From a virus: a stretch of DNA of 28,074 nt. A program made the translations under genes and the position numbers. Every line of letters begins with the position of its first letter. Positions within the stretch are counted from its first letter, which is position 1. Shown in pieces: positions 3,305 to 28,074 of the stretch. The notes under the pieces are model-generated. The model did no database searches. It saw nothing but the letters and a program-made list of their open reading frames with translations, and was not told the DNA's origin. The stretch spans positions 1 to 28,074 of IMG/VR virus record IMGVR_UViG_3300017987_001487; one strand, written 5' to 3'.

Positions 3305-6300
3305 TTACTTGTAGGCGGGCTTTTTTCCCAGCGCCTTGCGCGCCACGTTGACCATCTTGACCTCCAGGGCGCGGGCCTTCTCGCGCCGCTCCTCCATCGA
3401 GAGTTCGGCGTCGAACAGCACGTCGTACCGCCGTTCGCGCAGGTCCGATAGCTTGATGGCGGCGGCGTTCAGGCGCTTGTACTCGCGGCGCACGGCGGCG
3501 GGAGCCTTCTCGCCGTCGAGTTCCGCCGAGCCGATGATGCGGCCCAGCTCCTCGCGCCGATCGTACAGATCGCCGACCGAGCGGCCCGGTGTCCCCCGCT
3601 GAAACAGAGTCCCCGCGGCGGGCACGTCGGCGAAGTCCAGCGGCAGCACGGGGCGGTCGTTCAGCAGACCCGTCGCACGCAGCCCGTTCTCGACCGACGT
3701 CTCGATGCGGCGGTAGAGGCCGCCCGTGTGCTGGTTGACCAGATGCTCCATCTCGGCGGGCGAGTAGTTCACCAGGTCACCCATCGCCTTCATCAGCTCG
3801 GTGGTGTAGTTGTTGTATTGGTCCCTGCCTTCGAGGCTTTTCTTCTTCCACTCGGCGACGATGGGTCGACCGAACGGATCCTCGTTCATGGCGACCTGGA
3901 TCGACGGCGCGAACAGCGAGGGGATCATCGGAGGTACGGTCTGCTGTGCGGCGAAGCCCAGGAAGTCCCCCATCGCCTCGGGATTCTCGTGGTAGAAGCG
4001 GTCGGCGACGGCCTCGGGGAAGCTCGCAAGCCCCAGGCCCCACTCGAACGGTTTGGGGATGCGGACGATCGGGCCGTCGGGATGCGGCTTGAAGTTCCAG
4101 AACCCGTATCGCTGCCAATCCTCCATTTCCTCGTACCAGTCCTCGTCCTTATTCATGTACCACAGGGCGAGCGTCGGGGCGAAGATGTAGGCCACGCCCC
4201 GCAGCAGGGTGCGTAAGGTGTGCTGCTTGCCCGTGCGGATGGCCTTGTCCACGCCCTGAATCGCGGGGTTGAAGAACGCTGACATCCGGTTGACCACCCG
4301 CCCCAGCGATCCTGCGCGCTTGAAGTCCACGGTGACCTCGTTGGCGGCGTGCATGGCTTCGATCAGGATATGCTGGGGCGGTCGACGCCCCTCGCGCTTC
4401 ATGCGTTCGGCGTCCCACCCGTGCTTCTTCAGCACGGCCCGGAACTCGGCCATCCGGGAGCCGACTTCAGTGGCTGACAGGGCCGCCCGGATCGCTTCTA
4501 TCGGGTGGCGCACCACGCCCATCGCCCTGCCCTTGGCGTCGTCGGCGAGCACGCGCTGGACCTGGGCGACCAGCGATTTGCGGTCCAGTCCCAGGGGTTG
4601 CGACAGGTCGCCGCCCGTGGCGTGCCACAGCTCGAGCACGGGGTCGCTGTACTCCCCCTTGAGAAACCGCCGCATTTCCTGCCGCGAGAAGCCGAGCATC
4701 TCCATGACGGGCTTATGGGCGACAAAGCCGCCCTGCTGGGTCTGCATGAGGAATGTCAGGGTGTCACGGAGCAGGTTGCGCAGCGTGAAGGCGGGCGACA
4801 GGCCCGTGGCCCCCAGGCGCACCAATCGCTTCGGGGCGCCGAGAATCGTCTCGAGCATCCAGGGGAGCTGGTAGTAGTCCATCGACCGGATGGCGGCATA
4901 GAGTTCCTTGTCGAACCGGAACCACTGTTTCTTTCCGTTGCGGTACAGTGCGACCGTGTTGGGTTCGGTGCCCCTTGGCTCGCCGAGCAGGCGCTCGATA
5001 TACCGCCCGTTGTTCAGGCCCACCGGGTTACCGTTCTCGTCCCACGCCATGTCGATGAGCTTGTTGATCACGAGCGTCTTGTTTACCACCGAGAAGACTT
5101 CCTCGGTCATGGCGACCATCGACTCCAGCGGGTTCAGAATCAGGCGCTGGGAGCCCTTCATGCTCTTGACCGGGCGGGCGGTGTTGACCAGCGTTTTGTG
5201 ATTCACGCTTCTACGGCCCCCGATGTCGCGCAGCTCCTCGTCCATGACGCGCCGTAGGGGCACGTAGTGCGGGTACTTCTCGATGATGCGTTGGGCCTCG
5301 GCGTCGGTGATCCGCCCCACCTGGGCCATCAACCGCACCAGGGCGTTGTTGAACTCAGTCAGCTTGGCCGCGGCGCGGGCGAACCGCTCGTTACTGCGAT
5401 ACTGCTCGAAGACATACCGGTGGTCCTCGGCCCGCCCGCCCGGGTCGCGCCCGTCGGCGATCACGTCGAGGGCGTGCTGGGAGTACAGGAAGTCCACGAA
5501 GTCCTCGAGCTCACCCTTGCCGATCTGTGCCAGTGCATCGCGCAGCGAGTCGGCCATCTTCTCGCCTGTCACGGGCGAGTAGAGCCCGTTCTCGACGGCC
5601 CCGCGGGCCTGGGCGGGCGCGGCCTGGTCCAGCACGCGGGCGATGGTGTCGGCGCGCTCGCCGTGCTCGATCTCCTCGCCGCCCCGCATGGCGTTCACCA
5701 TCTTTGTGATCACGTGCTTGTTGTCCACAAAGATGCCGTACAGCTTGTCAGTGAATCCCATCGTGCTCTCGAGCTCCCTGCCGCTGGGGGCTTTGCCCGT
5801 CGAGGTGCGCTGGGCGCGAACGCGGGCCTGCGAGCCCTGGAGCTTCCAGGTCTGAATCAGGCCGTCAATGTGGGCCAGCTTCTTGGCGACCTCGGAGTGG
5901 CGCGAGAGCCATCTGTCCCACCACTGACGCAGCTCGGTGGGCAGCGGCCCATTGGGGTTCAGCTTGTCCTCGGCCCCCAGCATCCGGTGGGCGATGTACT
6001 CGGCCAGCCCCTCGGAGGTGCGCCCCGCCGCCGCGTAGTCGGCGGCCCGAGCCTGCTTCAGGGCCTCGCCACCCACGGACTCCAGTTCCGGGGTGATCCC
6101 ATGCGCCTCGTCCAGGTGGTGCATGACCTCGTGCAGGGCCGTGGCAATGTCGCCCGCGGCCTGCAAGCGCACGAGGTTGGCCCAATGGACATAATACCCC
6201 TTGATAGACTTGCGCTTGCCTGTGGTCCCGACACGAATCGGCACCTGGAACAGGGCCTCCATTTCTTTGATGATATCGTGCGGCGCGACGAGATTTTTCG

Positions 6301-9300
6301 GCGGCGCCCCCTGGGGCTCCTTGGGCAGAACGAGGCTCTTGTCGCCCCGGTAGAGCAGCGGAACGACGGCGCCGTCGAGAAGCTCGCCACGCGGGAGGGT
6401 TGTGGGTAGAATGATGGAATCCCCCCCGAGGATCGACTCGCGCTCGGATGGCGCGGGCCGACTCGCCTGGGCGGGACGCGCATCAAGAAACGCGAACGCC
6501 GACTCGTCGTTGTCAGCGACAGTGGCCTCCCATGCCTCGTCGTAGAACGGGGGCAGCCCCTCGGCCTCGCGCAGCTTATTGCCTTCTTCTCGATCCAGCG
6601 GCGACAGGCCCTGCTGCTGTCTCTCCAGGTTTCTCTCGGAGATCTCCTGCCGATCCAGTTCAATCTGTTCCGCCCGCCACATATCGAGAAGTTCTTCGGT
6701 GGTATTGGCGTTCTTGAGGGCGTCGATAATCTTGCCCTCGGCGAGCGTGCTCCACCCGCCCGAGAACAGTTGTTCGCCGACGTAGGAGTCGTCCATCGCC
6801 GCGGCGGTAAACTCGTCGAAGCGAACCCCCTTCTCGTTGAACCGGATTCTCTTGTTGCGGCGCTGAAGGCGGCGGACCTCCAGGAGCCCCTCGCGGTACT
6901 TCGAGTCCCTGCTGAGGTCTCTGGTATTAAGGGCGCCGCTGAAATGATCGTTCAGGAAGGCGACCACGGGGTTGTAGCGCCGAACCAGCTCGTCGATGGG
7001 TGGCGGCTGACCATACTCTCTCCGCCGATTCACCTCCATCCGCTCTCCAAGGTCGAGGCCCATCAGGTTTTCGAGAAAACGCCTGATGTCGTCGGTCAGC
7101 TCGACGTCGAGCGGCGTTCCCTTGATCTTCTTGGCGGCCTTGCGAACGGAGGCCCCCAGCAGGGCGAACTCTTTCTGCAGGCTGGGATACGGCGTCTTGC
7201 CTGGGCGCACCCATCGGAGGAAAGCCGCGGCGACCTTCTCCGCCGCCTCCGGGGTGAACTCCCGCGCCGTCGAGTCCGGGTCCATCCCCACCCACTTCTT
7301 CAGGCCCGCATCGCGCGGACCAAACCCCTGTTTGTCCGCGATATTCAGCGCCGCAAGAAACGTCGTGTACAGCACCCCCAACGGGGTTGCCGACCCGACC
7401 TGTCCGTCGGTCACGATGGCGAAGTGCCCGCCGTCATGAAGCTCCACGCCCACCGGATCGAACGGCGAGCGGATGTCGGCCCGTTCGAGGTCGTTGTGTT
7501 CGGCGACCCCATCGAACAGGGCATAGAAGTCGTCCAAGGACTCCAGCGGCAGCGCCTTGAAAAGGCCGCTGGGGCGAATCGACGATTCTCCGATGGCGTC
7601 CAGCAGGGCCATGATGGCCGCAACGTTGTCCTTGCCGATCAGCAGCTTCTTCTGGAGCTGACTCGCGACGCGCTCCCGGTTGGCGGAAACGGGCGCCTCG
7701 TCGGCAGACGCATCGGCGGCGGCGGATTCCGCAACGGACAACTTGGATTGGTCGAAGACCACGAGCTGTGGATCACTGAACTCGTCCCCGCGCACGTAGG
7801 CCGCATCGTACCCCTGGGCCTCCAGGTGTTCGGTCGCCTTGACACGGGCCGCGCTGTCGCTGTCCGTTTCGTCGCGCAGCGAGTCGGCGAGGGCCTCGAA
7901 GTCGATGGGGTTCTCGAACAGATGGGGGTTCTCGATGGACAGGGACACCTTCACGGCGTCCTCGGAGGACTCAAAGACGATATTTGCGCCCGCGAACGAG
8001 GCGTTCTCTCCCGACCAGTAAAGCTCGCGCCCGTTGATTTCAGACACGAGGTCATTCGGCCCACTGTCCGGGGTGTCGTCGGAGGTGCTGTCAGACACGT
8101 CGTCAGACACGTCGTCGGAAGTATCGTCAGGAATGAGGCCACTGTCGGACTTGTCTGTCGGCTTCTCGGTAGATTCTCCGAGAAGGGACTCCAGGTGCGG
8201 GATCAGGCCCGACTGGTTCTTCGTGCCCGTGGTCAGGTCGCGGATGTCCTTCTTTGCCTGTCGAATCTGCCGCTCGGTCCAGGCGATGTCGTCCATCTCG
8301 ACCATCGTCTCGCTGCCATCTTCAGCCGAGACGGGCCGCGGTTCGGTGCGCACGGATTTCGGGTTGCGTTTCAGGAACGCGAGGTCTTCTTCGAGTTCCT
8401 GAAGCTCCGTCTGAAGCTCCTGAAGATCGGCGCGGGCCTTGTCGAGCTGCTTGCGGGCCATCTTTTTCGTGCGCTTCTCGGCTCGGGCCTCGCTTCGCTT
8501 GGTCTGCTCGTCACCGCTCAGGTCGCTCTCAAGGGCCTTGGCTTGCTCCACCGCCCACCCGCTGCCGAGCTGGGCCAGCGAGTCGAGGGACTCGATCGGC
8601 ACGTCGTAGCCCGCCGCGAAGGCGCCGCGCAGGATGTTCTCGTACGCCTGCTGTGTCACCGTGTGACCACCGGGAAGATCGGTCCCCAGCACGCCGAGCA
8701 GCGACTCCACCTCGGCGTCCGTGGCGTCACCCTCGCGAAGCAGGTCGGCCATGCGCCGCAATTCGGCCTGGGCGGGGGCGTAGATCGATTCGGCGAACTC
8801 GTCGAACGTCAGGGTCCACGCCTTCGCCTTCAGCACATCGGGCGTTAGGGCGCGCTCGAGCTTGGCGTCCTCGTCTTCGGCGCCCTCGACCACGATGCCG
8901 TCGGCGGCCACTTCGCGTTCGGACTCGCGGGCCACCTCAGCCATAGCGATGGCGTCCTCGCGAGACATGGACGCGATCACGTGGGATGGGTAGCCCGCCT
9001 CTCGCAGCGTGAGAATCGCCTCCAGGTGCGTCCCCCGCTCCTGCCCGAGCGTGCCGCTGGCAGAAGATGAAGATAAAGACTTGTCTTTATCTTCCGAATC
9101 TTCTAAGCCCGTAGATTCTACCGTAGAAGTGACCGTAGAAGCGGGCATCTGCCCGAGCAGCGCGTTCGTCAGCCACCCGTCGGGAAGCAACGCACGCTTG
9201 ATCTGCGGCTTGTCGGCGTGGACCTTCTCGCCCCGCATTTCCTTGTCGTCGGCCCGCCCCTCACCGTACAGTTCCCCCTCGGGTGTGGCGTCACTCAGTG

Positions 9301-11728
9301 TGGTGGTGCGCGCGATCGCCAATGGTCCGATGCGGACGATACCCTCGCCGCCCGTGTCGCCCAGGGAGGTCTCGACGTCGGCCACATGGGGCGACGTCTC
9401 CACGTCGGAGAAGCCCGCCTCGTCACCCTGAAGCGACAGGTCGGTCTCCATCGGGTTGGCGAACAGGGCCTCGGGGAGTTCGCCGTAGATCGCCTCCTGT
9501 CGAGCGAGCCACTCGTTCGCCAGGTCGGGCCGCCCCGACTGCACCAGGGCGAGAAGCGCCTGCCGCACGGCCATCAGCCGTTCGGCGTCCCATTCGGTTT
9601 GGGCGAGCTGGGCGCGGGCGTCAGTGGCCGCCCCACCCGCCCCAAGATTCAACAGGTTCATCGCCCCGAACATCAGGAACTCGGCCAACAGGTCGTCACC
9701 ACCGGGAACCTCGCGGGCGTAGCGGTTCAAGAACGTGTCTTCGCCCTCGCCCTCCATGCGGGTCGTGCCAAACGCGGCCCGCAGCACCTCGCCCGCGCGT
9801 TCTTCGAGCGACTCGCTAAAGGGATCTTCGATGTGTGTGAGGCGCCGCCCCAGGCGCAGCCCTTGCCCGTACTTCTGCGCGAGCAGGCCGCGAGCTTCCT
9901 TCGTGCTGGCGGCATGCCCGTTGTCGACCAGCCACCGCGCCGTGCGGTTGTATGCCTTCTGAGCTGTCCGCTGGGCCTCGCGCCCCAGGCCGCTTTTCTT
10001 GAGGGCGTTGGCGCCCTTACCGATCGCCCCCGAGAAAAGGGCCTCGCCCATTTCCTCTGTGGCGTATTCTGTAGCCACGTTCAAGCAGGCGTCCAGAAAC
10101 ACCGTGTCGCTCGACGGGGCGGTGTCCGACAGCGACCAGTTGCCCGCGGCGTCCTTCTGGAGATATGGAGTGATGTCCTGCGTAAATGTCGAGGCCACGC
10201 GCTGGGGTGAGGCGAGGGTGCGCGCGACGCTAGACGCGGCGACCTGTGCCCCGGTTTCGACGATGCCGTAGGCCATGCGGAACGCCCGCTCCCCCATCCT
10301 GCGCTTGAGGTAGCTCGCCGAGCTGCGTTTCAGCCACCCCTTTCCGAGGGCCTTGACGCCCTCTTTGCCGACGGCGGACGCGGGGTTGGTCAGCAGGATG
10401 TCATACACGAACGGGATCATATTAAACCCGAGGTCCATCGCCTTCGAGGCGACCGTGCCGCCACGGGTTTCCCGCTCCTTCAGTTCGAGCAGGTACTTCT
10501 GGAGCACGAGCTGGTCCTGTCGGCGCAGATGCACGTCGGCCCAGGAGCCCGGTTCTCCGTAGTCCCGGATGGCACTACTCGACTCAATGATCGACAGTGC
10601 GTCCGTCGCGAAATTACCGAACCGCTTCTCGCCCACGGGCTTCTCGCCGCGGCGCTTGAGGTCGTCGTTCTGCTGACGCAGCGCGGCCCAATAGATGCGC
10701 GCAAACTTGGCATCCTCGTATTTTGGGATCGCCTTGGCCCAATTGTTCGTGTCGGTAGTCGACTCGAGCCAGTCGCGAGGCCCCAGCGACTTCCACCGCT
10801 CCACCCGCGCCCCTGCCTCGCTCGACAGGTAGTTCGAGAACCGTTCGGGATCGCTCCGCACGTCGTCCGGGATGTCCGTGAGGCGCGACACGGGGATGGT
10901 TCCCCGGTATTCGGCGCGGCTGCCGTCGCTGTACTGGTTGAACCGGAACTCGAACTCCTGGTCGAGTTGCGCTTCGTCCAGGCCCATGTCGCGCAGGCGC
11001 CGCTTCTCGGCGTCGAGAAGCCTGAGGCGCTCGCCGACGTTATCGGCGTTCGTCGGGGGCAGGGCCACGAGGTGACCGCGGGCGTCCTCGACGATGTCCC
11101 TGCCCGGAACGAACGCATACCGCACGGCCTCGAACAGGAACGGGGCCACGCGCTGTCGGTCGTAGTCCGAGAGGTCGCTGGTCGCATCGAGTACCGCCTG
11201 GGTCAGGTCGACATGATCAGCCCCGTGTCCGCCATCGGGCAGGCGCTTCTCGTCGTAGCTGGGACGCCCCATGCGGCTGACCTCGACCAGCTTCGACTGG
11301 ACCATCGAGCGCAGGCCCGCGTCCTTGATTCCGTAGACGCGCGAGAGGGCCTCGGGGCCGCCAGGCTTCTCCATGATGCGGCGCTCGAAGTCGTCCATCT
11401 CCTTGCGATTCTCGGGCTTCCCCACCTCCCGCGTGCGAGACGACGCCTCTTTCTCGAACGCATCGAACATCCCGCGCAGGGACTTCCCCTGCACGCGCTT
11501 GGAGAGCGCCGTCGCGGGGCTGGGCTTGGATGCGGGCCTGGTCTTGGCGTCTCGGTCGTAGTCAGCCAAGACGTCGGCAGCCGCGCCCACGGGGGACTGC
11601 GGCGCTCCGGTCAAGGGGTCGGCGGGGAGGCCACGGTGGGTGGGCAGCGTAGAAGGAACGACGGTCGATCCATCGAGCGGCGAGGTCACGATGGGACCGG
11701 TGCGGTCGAGCAGGTCGGTTGCGGGCAT
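3305..11728 (-). CDS. Giant polyvalent / internal virion protein (2807 aa) with ART-like and zincin domains
   Basis: This is the largest gene in the window, uninterrupted over 8.4 kb. Visible parts, in order: a helical N-terminal third; Ser/Asp/Glu-rich linkers (~860-888 and ~1193-1228) flanking a coiled coil (~1089-1122); a segment at ~1229-1325 ending GYDAAYVRG...LVVFDQSKL, typical of the ADP-ribosyltransferase-like domains of phage polyvalent proteins; a zinc-metallopeptidase motif HEVMH (1866-1870) with a likely third ligand in EGLAEYIAH (1906-1914); and a C-terminal region (~2300-2560) with LSPAFTLRNLLRDTL and IPKPFEWGLGL, matching what I know as large polyvalent protein domain LPD38. 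Such proteins are packaged in the virion and enter the host with the DNA. The enzymatic activities are inferred from motifs. It is the last gene of the late operon, 17 nt after the 466-aa gene, and ends at a strong terminator. Confidence 0.9.
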   Translation of the reverse strand: MPATDLLDRTGPIVTSPLDGSTVVPSTLPTHRGLPADPLTGAPQSPVGAAADVLADYDRDAKTRPASKPSPATALSKRVQGKSLRGMFDAFEKEASSRTREVGKPENRKEMDDFERRIMEKPGGPEALSRVYGIKDAGLRSMVQSKLVEVSRMGRPSYDEKRLPDGGHGADHVDLTQAVLDATSDLSDYDRQRVAPFLFEAVRYAFVPGRDIVEDARGHLVALPPTNADNVGERLRLLDAEKRRLRDMGLDEAQLDQEFEFRFNQYSDGSRAEYRGTIPVSRLTDIPDDVRSDPERFSNYLSSEAGARVERWKSLGPRDWLESTTDTNNWAKAIPKYEDAKFARIYWAALRQQNDDLKRRGEKPVGEKRFGNFATDALSIIESSSAIRDYGEPGSWADVHLRRQDQLVLQKYLLELKERETRGGTVASKAMDLGFNMIPFVYDILLTNPASAVGKEGVKALGKGWLKRSSASYLKRRMGERAFRMAYGIVETGAQVAASSVARTLASPQRVASTFTQDITPYLQKDAAGNWSLSDTAPSSDTVFLDACLNVATEYATEEMGEALFSGAIGKGANALKKSGLGREAQRTAQKAYNRTARWLVDNGHAASTKEARGLLAQKYGQGLRLGRRLTHIEDPFSESLEERAGEVLRAAFGTTRMEGEGEDTFLNRYAREVPGGDDLLAEFLMFGAMNLLNLGAGGAATDARAQLAQTEWDAERLMAVRQALLALVQSGRPDLANEWLARQEAIYGELPEALFANPMETDLSLQGDEAGFSDVETSPHVADVETSLGDTGGEGIVRIGPLAIARTTTLSDATPEGELYGEGRADDKEMRGEKVHADKPQIKRALLPDGWLTNALLGQMPASTVTSTVESTGLEDSEDKDKSLSSSSASGTLGQERGTHLEAILTLREAGYPSHVIASMSREDAIAMAEVARESEREVAADGIVVEGAEDEDAKLERALTPDVLKAKAWTLTFDEFAESIYAPAQAELRRMADLLREGDATDAEVESLLGVLGTDLPGGHTVTQQAYENILRGAFAAGYDVPIESLDSLAQLGSGWAVEQAKALESDLSGDEQTKRSEARAEKRTKKMARKQLDKARADLQELQTELQELEEDLAFLKRNPKSVRTEPRPVSAEDGSETMVEMDDIAWTERQIRQAKKDIRDLTTGTKNQSGLIPHLESLLGESTEKPTDKSDSGLIPDDTSDDVSDDVSDSTSDDTPDSGPNDLVSEINGRELYWSGENASFAGANIVFESSEDAVKVSLSIENPHLFENPIDFEALADSLRDETDSDSAARVKATEHLEAQGYDAAYVRGDEFSDPQLVVFDQSKLSVAESAAADASADEAPVSANRERVASQLQKKLLIGKDNVAAIMALLDAIGESSIRPSGLFKALPLESLDDFYALFDGVAEHNDLERADIRSPFDPVGVELHDGGHFAIVTDGQVGSATPLGVLYTTFLAALNIADKQGFGPRDAGLKKWVGMDPDSTAREFTPEAAEKVAAAFLRWVRPGKTPYPSLQKEFALLGASVRKAAKKIKGTPLDVELTDDIRRFLENLMGLDLGERMEVNRRREYGQPPPIDELVRRYNPVVAFLNDHFSGALNTRDLSRDSKYREGLLEVRRLQRRNKRIRFNEKGVRFDEFTAAAMDDSYVGEQLFSGGWSTLAEGKIIDALKNANTTEELLDMWRAEQIELDRQEISERNLERQQQGLSPLDREEGNKLREAEGLPPFYDEAWEATVADNDESAFAFLDARPAQASRPAPSERESILGGDSIILPTTLPRGELLDGAVVPLLYRGDKSLVLPKEPQGAPPKNLVAPHDIIKEMEALFQVPIRVGTTGKRKSIKGYYVHWANLVRLQAAGDIATALHEVMHHLDEAHGITPELESVGGEALKQARAADYAAAGRTSEGLAEYIAHRMLGAEDKLNPNGPLPTELRQWWDRWLSRHSEVAKKLAHIDGLIQTWKLQGSQARVRAQRTSTGKAPSGRELESTMGFTDKLYGIFVDNKHVITKMVNAMRGGEEIEHGERADTIARVLDQAAPAQARGAVENGLYSPVTGEKMADSLRDALAQIGKGELEDFVDFLYSQHALDVIADGRDPGGRAEDHRYVFEQYRSNERFARAAAKLTEFNNALVRLMAQVGRITDAEAQRIIEKYPHYVPLRRVMDEELRDIGGRRSVNHKTLVNTARPVKSMKGSQRLILNPLESMVAMTEEVFSVVNKTLVINKLIDMAWDENGNPVGLNNGRYIERLLGEPRGTEPNTVALYRNGKKQWFRFDKELYAAIRSMDYYQLPWMLETILGAPKRLVRLGATGLSPAFTLRNLLRDTLTFLMQTQQGGFVAHKPVMEMLGFSRQEMRRFLKGEYSDPVLELWHATGGDLSQPLGLDRKSLVAQVQRVLADDAKGRAMGVVRHPIEAIRAALSATEVGSRMAEFRAVLKKHGWDAERMKREGRRPPQHILIEAMHAANEVTVDFKRAGSLGRVVNRMSAFFNPAIQGVDKAIRTGKQHTLRTLLRGVAYIFAPTLALWYMNKDEDWYEEMEDWQRYGFWNFKPHPDGPIVRIPKPFEWGLGLASFPEAVADRFYHENPEAMGDFLGFAAQQTVPPMIPSLFAPSIQVAMNEDPFGRPIVAEWKKKSLEGRDQYNNYTTELMKAMGDLVNYSPAEMEHLVNQHTGGLYRRIETSVENGLRATGLLNDRPVLPLDFADVPAAGTLFQRGTPGRSVGDLYDRREELGRIIGSAELDGEKAPAAVRREYKRLNAAAIKLSDLRERRYDVLFDAELSMEERREKARALEVKMVNVARKALGKKPAYK
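8091..8114. repeat. 12-bp tandem duplication inside the giant gene
   Basis: TCAGACACGTCG occurs twice in direct succession. It encodes part of an Asp/Ser-rich linker (SDDVSDDVSD) and keeps the frame. It is a likely site of copy-number variation. Confidence 0.8.
9069..9094. repeat. 26-bp perfect inverted repeat in an AT-rich patch of the giant gene
   Basis: GAAGATAAAGAC (9069-9080) is followed, after two bases, by its exact reverse complement (9083-9094). It lies in a short AT-rich patch inside a GC-rich gene and encodes a Ser/Asp/Lys-rich linker. It could be a protein-binding site or a by-product of biased composition. Confidence 0.75.
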
Positions 11729-13172: not shown

Positions 13173-13246
13173 TGGAGGCGGGAATCGGAGTCGAACCGAT
13201 GTCAGCGGTTTACGAAACCGCCGTTCTACCACTGAACTAGCCCGCC
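13173..13246 (-). tRNA. tRNA-Thr (CGT)
   Basis: The acceptor stem GGCGGGC pairs with TCCCGCC (six pairs, with a mismatch at 7-66). The D-arm is GTTC/GAAC, the anticodon arm GCGGT-TTCGTAA-ACCGC with anticodon CGT, and the T-arm ATCGG-TTCGACT-CCGAT. Discriminator T and an encoded CCA follow (74 nt with CCA). It reads ACG, a common codon here, and is transcribed within the late operon. Confidence 0.9.
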
Positions 13247-13254
13247 CGGAAGGA

Positions 13255-13329
13255 TGGGAGCGGGGGCGGGAATCGAACCCGCGTCGGCGGGGATATGAAC
13301 CCCGCGTGGGAACCAGCACCCTCCCCGCT
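13255..13329 (-). tRNA. tRNA with CAT anticodon (Met, possibly Ile2)
   Basis: The acceptor stem AGCGGGG/CCCCGCT is perfect. The anticodon arm is CGGGG-TTCATAT-CCCCG with anticodon CAT, and the T-arm is GCGGG-TTCGATT-CCCGC. CCA is encoded after discriminator C, which is unusual for Met. The D-arm is irregular: only a three-pair GTG/CAC stem is convincing. CAT may read AUG, or AUA if C34 becomes lysidine. Its 5' end overlaps the stop codon of the 115-aa gene by 2 nt, and it lies 8 nt from tRNA-Thr. Confidence 0.8.
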
Positions 13330-13675
13330 ATGTCTCGGGCCATCGCCCCTTCGGGCAGCGAATGGCTGGATTTTTAACGCGCTTGGTGAACTGGCAGGTG
13401 CGCGTCCGGTAGAATATTTTCATCGGGCAGTCGCCGTCGTCGCAGTCTTTGCAGGCGTTCACGCGGTCACTGACCCAGGCGGGCAAGTCGCTCACGCGAG
13501 GCAACGGGTAACCTTTCTTGGCGCCCCAAGGCTGTCCATGGGGGCAGTCAAAATCGACCCCGCGCATATTATATCTTTTGGCCAGCGCAACGCGAAAACC
13601 CAGCCCAATCTTACGGTCGCGGCAGGTTCGGCAGTGGACGCCGCTTGTGCAATGTATCGTATCGAAAAAATTCAT
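13328..13675 (-). CDS. Cys-rich 115-aa protein, probable zinc-binding
   Basis: Nine cysteines are arranged in clusters: CTSGVHCRTC near the N-terminus (residues 9-18), FDCPHGQPW in the middle, and CKDCDDGDC followed by two further Cys near the C-terminus. This looks like one or two small zinc-binding knuckles in a basic protein. I cannot name a family, though the CxxxxxCxxC...FDCPHG layout looks familiar from small proteins near phage tail genes. The ATG at 13675 overlaps the stop of the upstream gene (ATGA), so translation is coupled. Its stop codon lies 2 nt inside the tRNA-Met gene. The region has lower GC than its surroundings. Confidence 0.8.
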   Translation of the reverse strand: MNFFDTIHCTSGVHCRTCRDRKIGLGFRVALAKRYNMRGVDFDCPHGQPWGAKKGYPLPRVSDLPAWVSDRVNACKDCDDGDCPMKIFYRTRTCQFTKRVKNPAIRCPKGRWPET

Positions 13676-14196
13676 GTGAGTGTAATCACGGCCTCCCCGC
13701 AGCGCGGATACCCTTCCTCGCCTATATCCATCGTGACCGATCCGCTGGGATGCCCATCGTTACACGTTACAGCTATGGCCGATTCCCCTTGACATACGAC
13801 GCTGCCTGCGCAGAAGCCGCTGGATATCCCTGCAAGAACGCGCCATTCGTTCGACACGCAGCGAATAGATACGGTCCATTCCTCGCAGTCGCCTGAACCT
13901 GGACCACTAAACGTACCGGACCATTTGCAATCGTCAACCCAGCTTAAAGAAAGCGATTCGGCAAAATCGTCTTCGCTGCAACCGTCAGCGCAACTGCCCC
14001 CGCCATCCCGCGTGTAGGTAATCGAACAGGAAATGGTTTCGTTATCGTTGCAATTCGTCGCACAATCCGAGCAGTCACTCGATGGTCCGCCGCCCTCGCC
14101 ACAGCAGCAGTCCTCGTGCATGGCGATCTTATCGGTGTCGGCGGTGCCGTCGTTGTTGCCGAATAGAATCTGACCGTCTTTGAACTGGATCGTCAT
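13672..14196 (-). CDS. Cys-rich 174-aa probable structural protein
   Basis: The product has 16 cysteines in 174 residues, beginning with a CCC triplet near residue 30 and continuing in pairs and singles through a Gly/Ser/Asp-rich, probably beta-stranded chain. The opening MTIQFKDGQILFGNNDG resembles the start of a tail-appendage protein. The density suggests disulfide knots or bound metal. There is no signal peptide, so oxidation would have to occur in the virion after release. I chose the ATG at 14196 because it overlaps the stop of the upstream gene as ATGA. A longer frame starting further upstream would overlap that gene more. Base composition is noticeably less GC-rich than the neighbouring genes. 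Function unknown. Confidence 0.8.
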   Translation of the reverse strand: MTIQFKDGQILFGNNDGTADTDKIAMHEDCCCGEGGGPSSDCSDCATNCNDNETISCSITYTRDGGGSCADGCSEDDFAESLSLSWVDDCKWSGTFSGPGSGDCEEWTVSIRCVSNEWRVLAGISSGFCAGSVVCQGESAIAVTCNDGHPSGSVTMDIGEEGYPRCGEAVITLT

Positions 14197-14897
14197 GCCG
14201 CGCAGTCCGTTCCGGTATGCAGGTCGCGCCACTCGGCGGTCGTGACCACTGTCCCGAAGGTGTGGCGGAAATTACCCTTGAGTTTGTTGTTGGCGCCATC
14301 GACCTGGAAGTCGAGCAGCTCCTGCGCGGGGTCGCATCCGAACAGGTAGAAGCTGCCGCCGTCTTTGATATAAGGAATCACCGTACCCTCGGGGATATAA
14401 CACGTCGCGTCAGTGACAGCGGAGCCCGCAACGGTCAGGGCCGCAGGATTGAAGCTGCTTTCGTCCCGCTTCAGATAGACCGTCACGCTGCTCTCGCCCA
14501 GGCTGGTTCCTTCCCACGTCGAGGGGTCGAGCGACACCGTGGCCGAGGCCGTGTCGAAGTCGGCCTCCAGTGTACCGTATCGAACCCGGTGTGTCGAATC
14601 AGGTGCGAGCACCCGTGCCATGCTGGCTTCTACCTGCCGCGAACCCAGTAGAACGCGCCCCCCGACGACCTCCATCGTCAGCGGATCGCTGACACGCATG
14701 AAGCGGGCCACCGACCGGGCCAGCTTCTCGTCTTCGAGAAGCTCGTCCTCGATATAATCGTCCGGGTCGGGCAGGGGCATCGCCTGGGCCGCCTGAAGAT
14801 AGTCGGCCAGCGACTCCACGGAGTCCCTCGGGACGGGTGTCAGCCCGCGGTCAGTCAGGGCCTCGTGCAGGTCACGCAGGTAGTCAAGATCACGCAC
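14193..14897 (-). CDS. Hypothetical 234-aa structural protein
   Basis: I do not recognise a family. The first ~70 residues are helical and charged, with EDELLEDEKLARSVARFMR. The rest is beta-type, with short strands and many Thr, Ser and Val. The start is GTG at 14897, preceded by AGGGGGTGA, and it overlaps the end of the upstream gene by 8 nt. The position among neck and tail genes and the mixed alpha/beta make-up suggest a minor tail or appendage protein. There are no membrane segments or catalytic motifs. Confidence 0.75.
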   Translation of the reverse strand: MRDLDYLRDLHEALTDRGLTPVPRDSVESLADYLQAAQAMPLPDPDDYIEDELLEDEKLARSVARFMRVSDPLTMEVVGGRVLLGSRQVEASMARVLAPDSTHRVRYGTLEADFDTASATVSLDPSTWEGTSLGESSVTVYLKRDESSFNPAALTVAGSAVTDATCYIPEGTVIPYIKDGGSFYLFGCDPAQELLDFQVDGANNKLKGNFRHTFGTVVTTAEWRDLHTGTDCAA

Positions 14898-17631: not shown

Positions 17632-18357
17632 TCAGTGTGTCACGTCGCCGCTGATGCGGCTGATCGAATCGTAGAATCCGATCGGGGCGCCGATGTCCTT
17701 GCGCCGTGTCTGTGTCGAGGCGTCCTTGTCCCGTTCGATGGACCGGGCCAGCATCCGCTCGTAGTGGTTGGCATGGACGCCCTGGGTGCGCCCGCTCATG
17801 CGCTCGGCCACACGCAGGGACGCCGCCAGCAGCGTCGCGTCGTGATGCAGGCCGCCGACAGGATAGTCGCCGTCGGAGGAGAGCTTGTTCGGGCGGACCT
17901 CATGGGTCCAGTAGAAGGTCATGTCCTCGTCGGGGATCGGGTGCCACATGACCTCGTACCGCTGTCCCGTCGCGGCGGGCGTCTTGGGGACGATGGCGAA
18001 GTGCGTCGGCGTTCCGGTCAGCTCGTTGGACGCCGTGCGCAGGCTGCGCAGATAGGACGCCGAACACTCGACGGCGCAGACCTCCGACATCGCGGCGTCG
18101 TGATAAATGCGCCCGTCGGCGATGCGCCCGAAGTTGTCGGGCAGGTCGGTCGACTCGTCATCCTCAGTGACCGATAGCTCGCTTTCGGGCAGCAGGAACG
18201 ACCATTTGCGTTCGAGCAGGAACTCTGAGTAGCCGATGTTGACGTACCGCTGGGCCGTGGTTTTTTGCGAGTCGGTCAGCGTGTACGACTGGTAGAGATA
18301 GAAGCCGACCTCCTCGTAGAGGTCTTTGAATGTCATGGAGAGGGTCGGTTCGGCCAT
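17632..18357 (-). CDS. Probable head-tail adaptor (gatekeeper) protein
   Basis: The 241-aa product opens TFKDLYEEVGFYLYQ and continues QRYVNIGYSEFLLERKWSFL. This helix pair, with an 'R-W-x-F' after a 'Y-N-x-G-Y-x-E' segment, is characteristic of phage neck adaptor and tail-tubular-A-like proteins that sit between portal and tail. The remainder has strands (ESELSVTEDD, EVMWHPIPDEDMTFYW) and a helical C-terminus. I chose the ATG at 18357 (TGAGG upstream) because the longer frame to 18408 would run into the tRNA-like element. The family call rests on pattern memory, not alignment. Another structural role is possible. Confidence 0.75.
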   Translation of the reverse strand: MAEPTLSMTFKDLYEEVGFYLYQSYTLTDSQKTTAQRYVNIGYSEFLLERKWSFLLPESELSVTEDDESTDLPDNFGRIADGRIYHDAAMSEVCAVECSASYLRSLRTASNELTGTPTHFAIVPKTPAATGQRYEVMWHPIPDEDMTFYWTHEVRPNKLSSDGDYPVGGLHHDATLLAASLRVAERMSGRTQGVHANHYERMLARSIERDKDASTQTRRKDIGAPIGFYDSISRISGDVTH

Positions 18358-18374
18358 GAGAACCTCATAGAATA

Positions 18375-18466
18375 TGGTGGGGGCTGGAGGAGTCGAACCA
18401 CTCGTCATGCCGCCGCACTTCTTTAATCGACAGCGGCTTTACAGGCCGCCGTGCGGATCAGCCCCC
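18375..18466 (-). tRNA. tRNA-Tyr-like element (GTA) with abnormal D-arm and long variable region
   Basis: The acceptor stem GGGGGCT/AGCCCCC is perfect, with discriminator A and an encoded CCA. The anticodon arm GCGGC-CTGTAAA-GCCGC is a classic Tyr loop with anticodon GTA. The T-loop is TTCGACT, but the T-stem AGTGG/CCTCC has two mismatches. Only 10 nt separate the acceptor from the anticodon stem, so no normal D-arm can form, and position 8 is G instead of T. The variable region is 30 nt and contains GTGCGG, which can pair with CCGCAC of the 'D' region. The first 9 nt overlap the end of the protease gene. It may be a functional odd tRNA, a decayed tRNA-Tyr or a tRNA mimic. Confidence 0.65.
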
Positions 18467-22040: not shown

Positions 22041-23141
22041 TTAGCTCGTGCTGCGAGGCACCGAGATCACGCCGCCCGCCCGCGGATTCGACACGCCGAT
22101 GTTGCCGCGCGTGTCGATGAAGTAGGTCTCCACGGTGTGCTGGTCGCGCGAGCGCAGGCCCTCGGTCTCGCGCATATAGAAGCCGTCCAGCACGTTGAAG
22201 TGGATGCCGTTGAAGTCCGTGACGTAGAGGCGGTGGTAGTCGTCGGCCAGCATCGGAACGTCCTTGATCGGGATGTTCCGGTAGGTGACCAGGCCCGCGT
22301 GCTCGCCCAGGTCGGGGCCGAGGCCCGTGTCCTTGTTGCGAGCCATCCGCACCATCGCCCGGACGTTCGGGCGCCCGGTGAAGATGCGCCACGCCTGGGC
22401 CTCGCCCAGCGACTCGTCGATGGTCATGGGCGCCTCGACTTCGAGGTCCATGAACATGTTGTCGAGGGCCTCCACGTCGCGCTCGGTGGCGAAGCCGTCG
22501 GTGGACTCCCAGCACTCGTTCCACGAGCGGGCGCGCGCGTTCGCGGCGAGGGAGCGGTCGAGGTCCTGCCACTTGGCGATGGCCTGCCCGTCCTCGGCGT
22601 AGGGGTTGGCCCCCTGGAACCCGCCGTTGAGGGCGGTCGTGTCGGTGGCCTGGGTGTCGAGGATGATCGGGAAGTGGTACGGGAGGCCGTAGATGTTCTT
22701 CTTGTCCGTGGGCGTGTCGAGCGACTTCCAGACGCGCTCCTCGAAGAAGTTACTTTTGCCCATCAGGGCGGCGAGGCGGTTGATGCGGAACAGCTCGACG
22801 AGCTGCTCGGGCGCACTGTTGACCGAGACTTCGTAGTCCTCGATGGAGTAGTCGGCCTGGATCATCCGCCACGGGACCACCGCCTCGTCGGTGTAATCGT
22901 CGGTCGAGGGGCGCGTCCGCTCGAAGGGCAGGGCGGCCTTGGCCGAGCCCGACTCCTTGAGCATGATTTTGTACCGCACGTCCTTGCCCGACTCGATGTT
23001 GACGCGGGTCTCGGACAGCAGCATATTGATCGCCCGGTACCGACCGTACTTCAGCAGCAGGGTCAGGTTGGGGACCAGGGGGTATTTCGAGCGGGTCAGG
23101 TTCAGAAGATCCCGCAGTTCATCGAAGTTGGTTCCGGGCAT
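22041..23141 (-). CDS. Major capsid protein
   Basis: The 366-aa protein follows the scaffold gene and precedes the decoration gene, the standard place for the capsid subunit. Length and composition fit an HK97-fold capsid protein: an N-terminal helical arm (~1-50), an extended charged loop region (~50-90, ESGKDVRYKIML), a helical core with SVNSAPEQLVELFRINRLAAL, and late beta strands ending RGNIGVSNPRAGGVISVP. A WRIFTGRPNVRAMVRMA segment probably belongs to the A-domain. There is no N-terminal protease or delta domain, consistent with the separate scaffold gene. The ribosome site AAGGAG lies just below a leader hairpin. The assignment rests on context and general pattern, not on a catalytic motif. 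Confidence 0.85.
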   Translation of the reverse strand: MPGTNFDELRDLLNLTRSKYPLVPNLTLLLKYGRYRAINMLLSETRVNIESGKDVRYKIMLKESGSAKAALPFERTRPSTDDYTDEAVVPWRMIQADYSIEDYEVSVNSAPEQLVELFRINRLAALMGKSNFFEERVWKSLDTPTDKKNIYGLPYHFPIILDTQATDTTALNGGFQGANPYAEDGQAIAKWQDLDRSLAANARARSWNECWESTDGFATERDVEALDNMFMDLEVEAPMTIDESLGEAQAWRIFTGRPNVRAMVRMARNKDTGLGPDLGEHAGLVTYRNIPIKDVPMLADDYHRLYVTDFNGIHFNVLDGFYMRETEGLRSRDQHTVETYFIDTRGNIGVSNPRAGGVISVPRSTS

Positions 23142-24891: not shown

Positions 24892-25173
24892 TTAATCTTT
24901 GTCGTGCCCGTATTCGCGTCGGAACCGGGCGATGTCCTTGGCTCGTTTGAAGTGGGCCACGCCCCGCTTGTCCCAATGGCCCAGGTGTCCGTATCGCCGA
25001 TTGAACGCCCGGACCTGCCGCGGGTGGCATCCATAGGAGAGGCACGAGTAGTGGTTCTCGCCGCCTGTCGGTCGGGTCGCATCCCCGATGTGTCCGCGAG
25101 CCCCGGTCTGGAACTCCTTCGTGTCGCGCTTGCCGAAGATGCGCTCGTAGTTGTCGCGATAGGCGTCACTCAT
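24892..25173 (-). CDS. Hypothetical basic 93-aa protein
   Basis: I do not recognise a family. The protein is basic and rich in Arg, His, Tyr and Gly. Residues 41-50 (HYSCLSYGCH) hold two Cys and two His that could bind a metal. The C-terminal half (VRAFNRRYGHLGHWDKRG, FKRAKDIARFRREYG) looks DNA- or RNA-binding. The ATG overlaps the portal stop codon (TGATG), so translation is coupled to the portal gene. A longer frame reaching 25638 is a shadow of the portal gene. The position suggests a head-assembly or DNA-packaging accessory role. Confidence 0.75.
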   Translation of the reverse strand: MSDAYRDNYERIFGKRDTKEFQTGARGHIGDATRPTGGENHYSCLSYGCHPRQVRAFNRRYGHLGHWDKRGVAHFKRAKDIARFRREYGHDKD

Positions 25174-26969
25174 CACATCCGCTCCATCGCCCGCTGAGGG
25201 CTGACCTTCTTCTCGGGGGCCTCGGGACCGCCCTGAATCATCCGCGCCAGATCGGCCTCGGGGCTTCGCTGTCCCATCGCTCCGGTCATGGCGGCCTCGG
25301 GATCGAACTCCGTGCGGTCGCCCACGGGCGGGCCGATCCAGCGCGACAGCTCGGGCATCCCGGTCTCGCAAGACAGTGACTCGATAATTTCGCGCAGGTT
25401 CGGGGGCGTGCCCTGCTTCTCGGCGAAGGACGACAGCGGGATCACGGCGCGTTCGAGAATCTCGAGCTTTCGCTTGAGGCGTCGATCGGGCGTCTCGATG
25501 CGGCCCGAGTTGACCACGATCTCGAACCCGTAGTCGCTCAGGTCGCCGTGACGGAGCTTGGACGAGAAGCGCCCCACTTCCTCGCTGCCATCCCCGTAGA
25601 GCACGCGGATCGGCGTCTCGCCGATATTGTCGTCCCACAGGTAGGTGGCGATCCGTTCGGCCACGCGGGCGTCGAAGTCGTAGACGGCCTTGTCCATGTC
25701 GTCCACCCGCCGCCCCGCGTTGGCCGCGAGAATCTCGTCCTGGGTGGCCGTGCCCGACTGCGGCCCGGACCCGCTGAGAATCTCGGTGTTGCCGCTGATT
25801 TCGGAAAGCTGGCCGCTGGCGAAGGCCGCATACTCGTAGAGCTTCTCGCTCGCCCCGCCGACCTCCATCTGCCTGATCCGGTCGATGTTCGGGAACGGAA
25901 CCCAGGCGTCGTCGGCGTTCTGTGCGTTGCTGATGTACCGCTCGTCAGTCGAGTCGTCGTAGGCCACGAACCGCCGATACGATTCGGCCTGCCGCCCCGC
26001 CTTCTGCATATTCTTGTTAATCAGCACCGACAGATCGTACCACACCGCTACGGGACACAGTGGAATGGGCGAGTCGGGAACCTGCTCGAAGCCGAGAACC
26101 TCGTAGGGGCCGTCCGGGTGGTCGTACTCGGCGACGCGCAGCGACTTGGCGGGGCCGTGTCCGATTTCCGGGACCGTGTAGACCTTGCCATCCTGACGCA
26201 CCCAAATGTCGACCAGGGGCACGACAGGGCGAAGCGCATCCTGGGGCTTCTTGTACTTGCCCGCCCACTTGCCTTCGTGGCGGGCGACGAGAGAAACGGT
26301 CTTCAGTTCCGACACCACATCGGGCTCGAACAGCTCTGGATGGGCCTCGAGATAGTCCAGCGGAAGCTCGTAGCGGTTTCCCATGAACTGCGCCGACTCC
26401 AGCGTCTTGCAGTGCGGGTCCAGCACGAAGTCGTCGGGCGAGACACGAGAGACGTAGACCACGCCGTTCTGCAGGGGGTTGCCGTTGTCGTCCACCAGGC
26501 TGTCGCCCTGCGTCTGACCACCCGGTCCAAGGCCAACCTTCACGATCCCGAAAGACACGAAGGCGTCGATCAGCACCGTGCGTTTGACCTTGAACCAGTG
26601 CAGCCGCTTGAACTCCTGATCGACCGCGGCGCCCAGGCGGGAGGCCGTCACGCGCCGAGCCGCAATCTCGTCCCGGTCGGCGTCGTGCGGAACCACCTTC
26701 GGGATCACGCGCGCCCGCGGATTGGCCGACGAGAAGTAAGGCAGGAAGGTCGTGATGATGTGGTTGACCTTGTTGACCGGGAGCCGCGTGCGCCCCGCCT
26801 TGTGACCCGAAATGTCGGACCGGTAATACGGCCCCACGAAGTCCTGGAGGAAGGTGCGGCGCGTGGCCCGCAGCTTACGATGCTCGCGGTCCCACAGGCG
26901 CACCTGATCGAGCAGGCGCTCCTCCATCGACTTGTTTTTCGACTCGGATTGGACTGCGCGCTTTACCAC
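25173..26969 (-). CDS. Portal protein
   Basis: The 598-aa protein follows the terminase gene and precedes the scaffold, as expected for the portal ring that forms the DNA entry vertex. The start is GTG at 26969, with CGAGGAC upstream, overlapping the end of the 57-aa gene by 7 nt. Typical portal patterns are an N-terminal helical clip (RLLDQVRLWDREHRKLRATR), the segment NKVNHIITTFLPYFSSANPR, the strand VSPDDFVLDPHCKTLESAQF, and a long central helix region (EISGNTEILSGSG, DDMDKAVYDFDARVAERIATYLW). The size and layout resemble portals of short-tailed phages. I name it by pattern and context. Confidence 0.9.
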   Translation of the reverse strand: MVKRAVQSESKNKSMEERLLDQVRLWDREHRKLRATRRTFLQDFVGPYYRSDISGHKAGRTRLPVNKVNHIITTFLPYFSSANPRARVIPKVVPHDADRDEIAARRVTASRLGAAVDQEFKRLHWFKVKRTVLIDAFVSFGIVKVGLGPGGQTQGDSLVDDNGNPLQNGVVYVSRVSPDDFVLDPHCKTLESAQFMGNRYELPLDYLEAHPELFEPDVVSELKTVSLVARHEGKWAGKYKKPQDALRPVVPLVDIWVRQDGKVYTVPEIGHGPAKSLRVAEYDHPDGPYEVLGFEQVPDSPIPLCPVAVWYDLSVLINKNMQKAGRQAESYRRFVAYDDSTDERYISNAQNADDAWVPFPNIDRIRQMEVGGASEKLYEYAAFASGQLSEISGNTEILSGSGPQSGTATQDEILAANAGRRVDDMDKAVYDFDARVAERIATYLWDDNIGETPIRVLYGDGSEEVGRFSSKLRHGDLSDYGFEIVVNSGRIETPDRRLKRKLEILERAVIPLSSFAEKQGTPPNLREIIESLSCETGMPELSRWIGPPVGDRTEFDPEAAMTGAMGQRSPEADLARMIQGGPEAPEKKVSPQRAMERM

Positions 26970-27136
26970 GGGTTGTCCTCGGAAGCGGCCTCGATGTCGT
27001 CCAGCAGGTTGTCCTCGTCCTCGGCGCCGATGCCGAAGGCGTCCCGCAGGTCGTCGAAGTCGGAATCGTCGTCACACAGGCACAGCAGGCGGATATCTTC
27101 GGGGCTCAGAGCGGACTGGCGAACGATCGTCACCAT
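26963..27136 (-). CDS. Small acidic 57-aa protein between terminase and portal
   Basis: This is a short gene in the gap between terminase and portal. The protein is very acidic, beginning MVTIVRQSALSPEDIRLL and continuing CDDDSDFDDLRDAFGI, with a Glu/Asp-rich tail. It overlaps the terminase end by 7 nt and the portal start by 7 nt, so all three are probably coupled. I do not recognise a family. The gene-like evidence is the tight overlaps and the fact that it fills an otherwise empty gap. There is no separate ribosome site beyond the terminase sequence. Role unknown. Confidence 0.65.
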   Translation of the reverse strand: MVTIVRQSALSPEDIRLLCLCDDDSDFDDLRDAFGIGAEDEDNLLDDIEAASEDNPW

Positions 27137-28074
27137 CGGTGGATTCCTTGTCGTTGGCGCTGTTTCATGGCGTCACGGAAGCGCCCCTCGGGCGTCCAGA
27201 GCGACGGCATGGATTTCTTCGCACGGGCCGATGGCTGTTCTTTGAAGCACAGCACCAGGCCCGCCGCGGCGATCACCCGGTCCCCGTGCTCGGCGCGGCC
27301 TCCGCTGGGCGAGTCGATCAACTCCGAAGGCCCGATGGAGCCGCTGGGGTAATGCACGTACAGCTCGGCCTCGGCCACCGTGCGTTCGTCGTGAAGCGTG
27401 AACTCGCCATTCGCCAGCGCCCTGCGAAAGTCTTCCAGCAGCAGGCGCTTGTTGTCGCGGCTCGAGTGCCACCCGATTTTTTTGTTCTCGGGATGCCACG
27501 GGATCAGGAGGTTCTGGTTCCCCAGGACGTGCCGATACCCGCACCGATACACCTCGCGACCGAAGATTCCACCGGGGCCGTTGGCCTCCCACCCCAGGAA
27601 GCAGTGCCCCACCTCGCCCTTGAACCACTTGCAGATCGCCACGGCTTGACGCGCAAACTCGGTCGGGCTCGTGTCCGGGCACTCCCAGGACGCCACCTCC
27701 TCGCGCGTGTCCACACACGCAACCTTCAGCACACTATTCGAGGCGCCTTGACCGTTGGAGATGTCCGCAAACGCCACATAGTTAACATCCTGCGGGGGGT
27801 ACAGCATCCCGTTTCGGTCTTCGATCAGCGGACACCACAGCCTCAGTCGGCGTCGTCCCGAGTCGGGCCTGAACTCCACGTCGGTGATGTCATAGAACAC
27901 GCCCTCGGAGTGCGTCACCGTGCTGTAGTGCAGCTCTCCGCAACACGACGGATCGGACAGCCCGCCCTCGCCGCGAACGCGCTGGAGCACGTCCAGATCG
28001 AAGAAGGCGTCACCCGACGAGAGGTAGTCGATGTCCAGCTCCTGTGCGATTTCCATGCGGCTGGTGCGTCGCGC
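27130..28074 (-). CDS. terL: Terminase large subunit (partial, nuclease half)
   Basis: The frame is open to the right window edge, so the ATPase half lies outside. The visible ~314 residues contain the nuclease region: the strand YVAFADISNG with an acidic residue for metal binding, a second strand ending in GWEANGPGG, and HGDRVIAAAG near the C-terminus with the conserved Asp. The start ARRTSRMEIAQELDIDYLSSG is the usual linker before the nuclease domain. The protein cuts concatemeric DNA and pumps it into the prohead through the portal. The small subunit and the packaging site would lie further upstream. The stop overlaps the start of the 57-aa gene by 7 nt. Confidence 0.93.
   Translation of the reverse strand, partial: ARRTSRMEIAQELDIDYLSSGDAFFDLDVLQRVRGEGGLSDPSCCGELHYSTVTHSEGVFYDITDVEFRPDSGRRRLRLWCPLIEDRNGMLYPPQDVNYVAFADISNGQGASNSVLKVACVDTREEVASWECPDTSPTEFARQAVAICKWFKGEVGHCFLGWEANGPGGIFGREVYRCGYRHVLGNQNLLIPWHPENKKIGWHSSRDNKRLLLEDFRRALANGEFTLHDERTVAEAELYVHYPSGSIGPSELIDSPSGGRAEHGDRVIAAAGLVLCFKEQPSARAKKSMPSLWTPEGRFRDAMKQRQRQGIHRW

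Follow-up and report, generated by a model that had tools for sequence, protein, structure and literature searches.

The window analysed here, a virus record of 28,074 bases (65% G+C), encodes on its minus strand a giant protein that is probably the large internal virion protein, ejected during infection, of a phage resembling podoviruses, with one intact zincin next to a conserved C-terminal core and with other cargo that appears to have eroded. Proteins of this kind bear on how chains of 300 kDa pass through a short phage tail and on what they do inside.

Genomic context of the giant gene

The giant gene (P0001; 3305..11728, minus strand) consists of 2807 codons in one unbroken frame, as the earlier note had claimed without giving the strand, and starts with an ATG a few bases downstream of an AGGG-type Shine-Dalgarno sequence. 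The order of genes on the minus strand is a probable terminase near the window end (27130..28056; phrog_24361, E 0.0019), the portal protein (25173..26969; phrog_156, E 6.2e-7; SU10_portal, E 0.011), a probable major capsid protein (22041..23141; phrog_9953, E 7e-4), an Ig-containing protein, an SU10-type head-tail adaptor (17632..18408; PF24175, E 2.7e-7), the giant and then an exonuclease, a Sak4-like ATPase (recombinase) and an SSB. Since these last three follow the giant, we place it as the final gene of the late, structural cluster; judging by its profile match, the adaptor is evidence that this cluster is that of a short-tailed phage. Among the neighbouring genes, only those for the SSB and the Ig-containing protein have relatives in the phage loci compared, and the phage therefore looks like a separate lineage.

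Several features of the cluster deserve mention in their own right. The Ig-containing protein (18458-19525, minus strand; 355 aa) combines an N-terminal Big_2 domain (E 3.5e-6) with a trypsin-like GDSGGPVF signature and candidate His and Asp motifs, and has a single homolog, in locus L053. A tRNA-Thr(CGT) and a tRNA-Met gene (13173-13329, minus strand) lie within the late cluster; on one side they have the gene that precedes the giant and on the other a gene (13672-14232, minus strand) for a very Cys-rich protein of 186 aa (EDCCCGEGG...CSDCATNC...) that matches no family.

In Pelagibacter phages (HTVC034P and related ones), the homolog comes after two genes, a small one for an ‘internal virion protein’ and another of ~580 aa, and before a tail fibre gene; in Bacillus Page-type phages it lies downstream of a peptidoglycan hydrolase, and for the phiARM81mr homolog the annotation reads virion structural protein. 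This slot is that of T7 gp16 and of the N4 virion RNA polymerase (vRNAP) (PMC8954989, PMC12633501). The window giant is the last large gene of its late cluster and has a C-terminal core common to relatives in the gp16/vRNAP slot, the two features by which we recognised a podovirus ejection protein; by its position and sequence, it would occupy, in a short-tailed phage, the slot of the third ejection protein. Evidence from virions comes from the Lessievirus giant JC1 gp69, in which Pfam LPD38 lies near the C-terminus (4195-4401 of 4515 aa) and for which 51 unique peptides covering 15.6% of the 4515 aa were detected by mass spectrometry in CsCl-purified virions (PMC9144972); its DC1 homolog matches the core of the window giant with 23% identity (tblastn, E 2e-7). 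Synteny and the proteomics of this distant relative thus suggest that the giant is packaged in the virion. Of the earlier proposal, a large phage protein of polyvalent type that has a zincin and an LPD38 C-terminus is supported, and its delivery into the host appears likely.

A conserved C-terminal core larger than LPD38

The ejection core spans ~820 aa at the C-terminus (residues 1984-2807; 3308..5779, minus strand; PHROG 9854 / 14770, E 7.6e-63), the two PHROG families, both unnamed, covering residues 1992-2800. Pfam LPD38 (PF18857) matches only part of it (residues 2529-2680; 3689..4144, minus strand; 103.7 bits against a cut-off of 27, E 1.8e-29), which bears out the earlier label of an LPD38-like C-terminus, and the whole giant has otherwise no Pfam match of weight. 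With tblastn, the giant matched 148 phage records; in the best 40 of these, all matches fell within residues ~1984-2800 and had less than 60% identity. Ten core sequences (alignment A1), 22-27% identical to one another, align end to end as a single module with 31 invariant columns. A pattern scan for the core retrieved at least 524 stretches in viral contigs and 152 in bacterial genomes, ranging from Bacillus, Paenibacillus and Veillonella to Aeromonas, Pseudomonas, Nitrospirae and others. The core is C-terminal in nearly all of the 91 giants examined and can start anywhere from residue 1 (a fragment) to residue 3837; it is internal in three exceptions (L020, L032 and L036), where ~700-800 residues follow. 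In another set, of 81 core-bearing giants from bacterial genomes, a median of 6 residues comes after it. Because this ~820-aa module aligns end to end and recurs at the C-terminus of giants, LPD38 is only a section of a larger module.

AlphaFold2, run on residues 1780-2807 (the core and the zincin before it) with an alignment of 62 relatives, produced a confident model (pLDDT 83.8, pTM 0.84). Foldseek found no match for it in the PDB at E<=0.001 and 79 among viral models, many of them named large polyvalent proteins. What had been a vague label is thus now a defined core that can be modelled confidently and that has no fold match in the PDB. A simple hydropathy scan revealed no transmembrane segment that stands out (best value 1.41). 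Single-sequence scans of viral contigs with the whole protein, its middle part, its ART-like segment and L013 retrieved no relatives beyond the queries themselves, and those of plasmids none.

An intact zincin coupled to the core

Directly before the core lies a domain that we call zincin A (residues 1797-1985; 5774..6340, minus strand), delimited by profile relatives and AlphaFold2 secondary structure, with an intact active-site pattern. The earlier note had taken HEVMH and EGLAEYIAH as two motifs of a zinc protease; both are present (from residues 1866 and 1906), but they belong to a single zincin, HEVMH (1866-1870; 6119..6133, minus strand) being its HExxH motif and EGLAE (1906-1910; 5999..6013, minus strand) lying in the helix of the third zinc ligand, a Glu. 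In an alignment of 18 sequences (A6), G65, R75, H87, E88, H91 and P149 are invariant, among them the H, E and H of HExxH, and the EG.AE motif is nearly so. The domain matched 13 giants directly and 22 by iterated profile. HExxH is kept in all 22 of these viral relatives and in 17/17 core-bearing giants from bacterial genomes that have zincin A, the latter not used in building the profile, although the two sets may have a few phages in common.

The predicted structure supports the zincin assignment. Polyvalent MPTases have been defined by an N-terminal helix, a three-stranded sheet and a C-terminal pair of helices, one with HExxH and the other with the Glu (Iyer et al., PMC5512222), and the zincin A model shows this succession (DSSP: helix 37-48, strands 52-54, 65-68 and 73-76, helix 82-97 with HEVMH at 87-91, helix 121-137 with E127). 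Pfam MPTase-PolyVal (PF18818), which represents one clade of the group, does not match zincin A at E<=10, so that zincin A belongs to another clade. It is predicted to bind metal and to be catalytic. The best hit of the zincin A profile among PDB sequences (E 8e-4) was to the helical part of SOS1, a protein unrelated to zincins, and was taken as a chance helical match.

Zincin A keeps a near-fixed distance to the core. The gap between them measures 8-20 residues in 21 of the 22 viral relatives and 7-40 in 16 of the 17 from genomes, and overall zincin A sits 7-48 residues before the core in 38 of the 39 relatives that carry it; the part N-terminal to it has anything between 28 and 3098 residues (a few contigs being fragments). 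A zincin is thus built into the core at near-constant spacing across distant relatives, unlike cargo that is exchanged. By sequence at least, zincin A is absent from 69 of the 91 core-bearing giants and is therefore not essential for ejection in general; a search for a degenerate zincin in these zincin-less relatives gave no signal above decoys. On a tree of 89 cores, its presence is scattered over deep branches and requires 7 changes, compared with 19.8 when labels are shuffled, the pattern that an ancient joined unit with several losses would leave, although such a tree cannot tell gain from loss. Carriers of zincin A also have a longer N-terminal part (medians 776 vs 225, raw p 6e-6), but the link lost its significance when independent pairs of the tree were compared.

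Probably eroded domains and the N-terminal part

Upstream of zincin A, the giant holds two segments that resemble enzymes and lack their catalytic residues. The first is an ART-like remnant (residues 1238-1332; 7733..8017, minus strand) corresponding to the C-terminal two thirds of the ART-PolyVal fold. A home-made profile built on 18 ARTs from relatives scored 18.6 bits over these residues, compared with 5.4 for the best of 1001 shuffled decoys, and the match is limited to the back two thirds of the profile, the front with the YHG histidine being missing. Polyvalent ARTs have an H-Y-D active site with an NAD-binding His (PMC5512222), and residues 1179-1268 of the giant contain no His at all; the catalytic His has been lost. 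Pfam ART-PolyVal (PF18760), which passed its cut-off in 8 of the 46 records searched, does not match the giant at E<=10. Hence, the ART-like segment described by the earlier note exists by profile, but neither the Pfam family nor the histidine does. AlphaFold2 predicts some strands for this part, with an overall pLDDT of 61, and a structure alignment (A4) was left out because its partial ART rows were misaligned. Eight core-bearing giants from bacterial genomes (L268, L233, L216, L244, L231, L250, L224 and L266) have one or two ART domains per chain, mostly with a YHG-type motif.

The second segment, zincin B (residues ~1417-1559; 7052..7480, minus strand), first appeared as weak tblastn matches (E 0.1-6) of residues 1474-1559 to the giants of three phages, CP2 (Xanthomonas), AF (Pseudomonas) and Ab9 (Acinetobacter), in which the match starts ~30 residues past a HExxH. 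A profile of 53 non-redundant relatives, from which these three seeds were omitted as they had been chosen for matching the window, scored 26.1 bits over the back half of the segment (residues 1475-1557), compared with 4.8 for the best of 1001 decoys; the 53 relatives having been found via an alignment of the three seeds, this repeat test is only partly independent. HExxH is present in 78/78 members of the zincin B family and has been lost in the window, where alignment places either HDGGH (1431-1435) or SATPL (1446-1450) at its position; HDGGH needs a long insertion, and SATPL falls there when the pairwise alignment to L208 is prolonged gap-free. An active second zincin was rejected for lack of this motif. 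The AlphaFold2 model of the middle part has low confidence (pLDDT 61) and a fold search with it returned nothing.

In several relatives, zincin B comes immediately after an ART, which is also the order seen in the window. L208:2-4324, from a Synergistaceae contig, joins zincin B (HEFGH) and zincin A (HELGH), both intact, to the core in a single chain and is the closest parallel to the architecture of the giant from its middle to its end. Because of this shared order and the intact set in L208, we read the middle of the giant as an eroded ART-zincin pair. The picture of several weapon-like enzymatic domains given earlier is not supported: the ART-like segment is left with no candidate NAD-binding His, and zincin B, absent from the earlier note, has no HExxH. 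This is a warning that catalytic labels in such giants can designate remnants.

The N-terminal ~1070 residues (8519..11728, minus strand) have no relatives recognisable by sequence searches and are followed by a probable coiled coil (residues 1073-1163; 8240..8512, minus strand), suggested by many weak matches to coiled-coil Pfam families, and, upstream of the ART-like segment, by an acidic linker rich in Asp, Ser and Thr (residues 1201-1225; 8054..8128, minus strand). Of the acidic linkers reported between domains, this one is marked, with a net charge of -22 over residues 1201-1300, acidity elsewhere being modest. The statement that more than 1500 residues match nothing is borne out by sequence for roughly residues 1-1230 and for 1560-1790, but not for 1475-1557, the back half of the second zincin that the earlier note had missed.

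Proposed role

We propose that the giant would be packed in the phage head and expelled via the short tail ahead of or together with the DNA. The C-terminal ~820-aa helical core, common to all relatives, would be the packaging or ejectosome part, and the ~190-aa zincin A directly before it is predicted to be an active zinc metallopeptidase. This enzyme would most likely cut in cis, or else cut its neighbours, and a cut, made in assembly or once the protein has entered the host, may release or remodel the long N-terminal part. The ART-like segment and zincin B are probably decayed cargo, serving now at most as scaffold or spacer. As zincin A is paired with the core at near-fixed distance and the N-terminal part varies freely, we favour a function in delivery rather than in attack. 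Cleavage in cis is suggested by precedent and is not guaranteed, since N4 vRNAP, which has a zincin-like C1 domain, is nevertheless packaged uncut (PMC5512222; PMC12633501).

The timing of cleavage defines a sub-case of this explanation, possible if somewhat doubtful, in which zincin A would cut the chain, the scaffold or other ejection proteins during head assembly, so that only fragments would be packaged. It agrees with the near-fixed place of zincin A beside the core and with P1 DdrB, which has a domain of that class and is cut down to 76 kDa before it is packaged (PMC5512222); against it, N4 vRNAP enters the head whole, and the JC1 gp69 peptides neither show nor exclude cleavage. We consider it improbable that zincin A is a structural relic or a zinc-binding assembly fold instead of a protease, even though the catalytic residues are gone from two domains next to it in the chain and most core-bearing relatives do without a zincin, because the HExxH motif, with both His and the general-base Glu, the latter not needed for a purely structural role, is kept in all 39 relatives, a count that may miss degenerate members as the profile was built on HExxH sequences. 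Still more improbable is a multi-weapon effector whose active zincin and ART would enter the host to cleave and ADP-ribosylate its proteins: giants in the same slot, core-bearing ones included, regularly carry ARTs with the YHG/T signature, locus L014, a clade-mate of the window, retains YHG and LYLT, and the zincin A ligands are intact, but the window's ART is partial and devoid of its His, zincin B has no HExxH, and zincin A is locked to the core and not exchanged.

The ejection protein that we favour can be set in a broader and much more speculative picture, unlikely as it may be in all its parts. The zincin and the ~820-aa core would form an old, self-processing delivery engine, of unsolved fold, of short-tailed phages infecting Gram-negative and Gram-positive hosts. 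The C1-C2 end of N4 vRNAP would be its counterpart, perhaps even homologous to it at a very great distance. Cargo at the N-terminus would be swapped on and off this engine and released by the zincin; here, the old cargo (the ART and the second zincin) would have decayed and the engine not.

Comparison with known systems

The large polyvalent proteins of LPD38 type (Iyer et al. 2017, PMC5512222) share with the giant LPD38, a phage-only domain, and the combination of an MPTase-type zincin with an ART-like segment. The giant differs from them in matching neither Pfam MPTase-PolyVal nor ART-PolyVal and in the degeneration of its ART and second zincin, and it shows LPD38 to be part of the larger core. 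The ‘DarB-like’ giants of Lessievirus (Bcep22 gp75, DC1 gp67 and JC1 gp69) have a homologous C-terminal core with LPD38, 23% identical in DC1 gp67; unlike the window giant, they carry SLT lysozyme, methylase and helicase regions, and neither the whole giant nor its slices had a Pfam match to the DarB-like methylase or helicase domains. The podovirus giants of Pelagibacter (HTVC010P/HTVC034P) and Bacillus Page-type phages occupy the same ejection-protein slot, and those of HTVC034P and the Page-type phages align with the window giant over the whole core; their N-terminal part is shorter, and a zincin is not detectable in them.

N4 vRNAP (PMC12633501), also a third ejection protein, has a similar plan, with a variable N-terminal enzyme, a zincin-like C1 domain with HExxH and a large helical C2 domain, whereas the giant has no RNA polymerase (Pfam, whole protein and slices). 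We rejected it as a homolog because neither sequence nor profile comparison showed its C-terminal domain to be similar to zincin A or the core. T7 gp16 is likewise large and helical and has the same genomic slot as the giant's relatives, but there is no sequence match, the giant differs from gp16 in having no standout transmembrane segment, and gp16 is absent from the best 50 of the 96 PDB fold matches of the giant's model. Among other zincins, the Pro-Pro endopeptidase PPEP/Zmp1 shares HExxH and the Glu helix with zincin A (profile match over that region, E 0.04), and ATLF-like zincins match 3 of 18 zincin A relatives (best E 3e-4); these are weak, general zincin resemblances, with no common context and no claim of a common substrate. 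LPD38 giants, polyvalent zincins and ARTs being already known, the window giant is a further member of this group, with a clearer anatomy than its labels had suggested.
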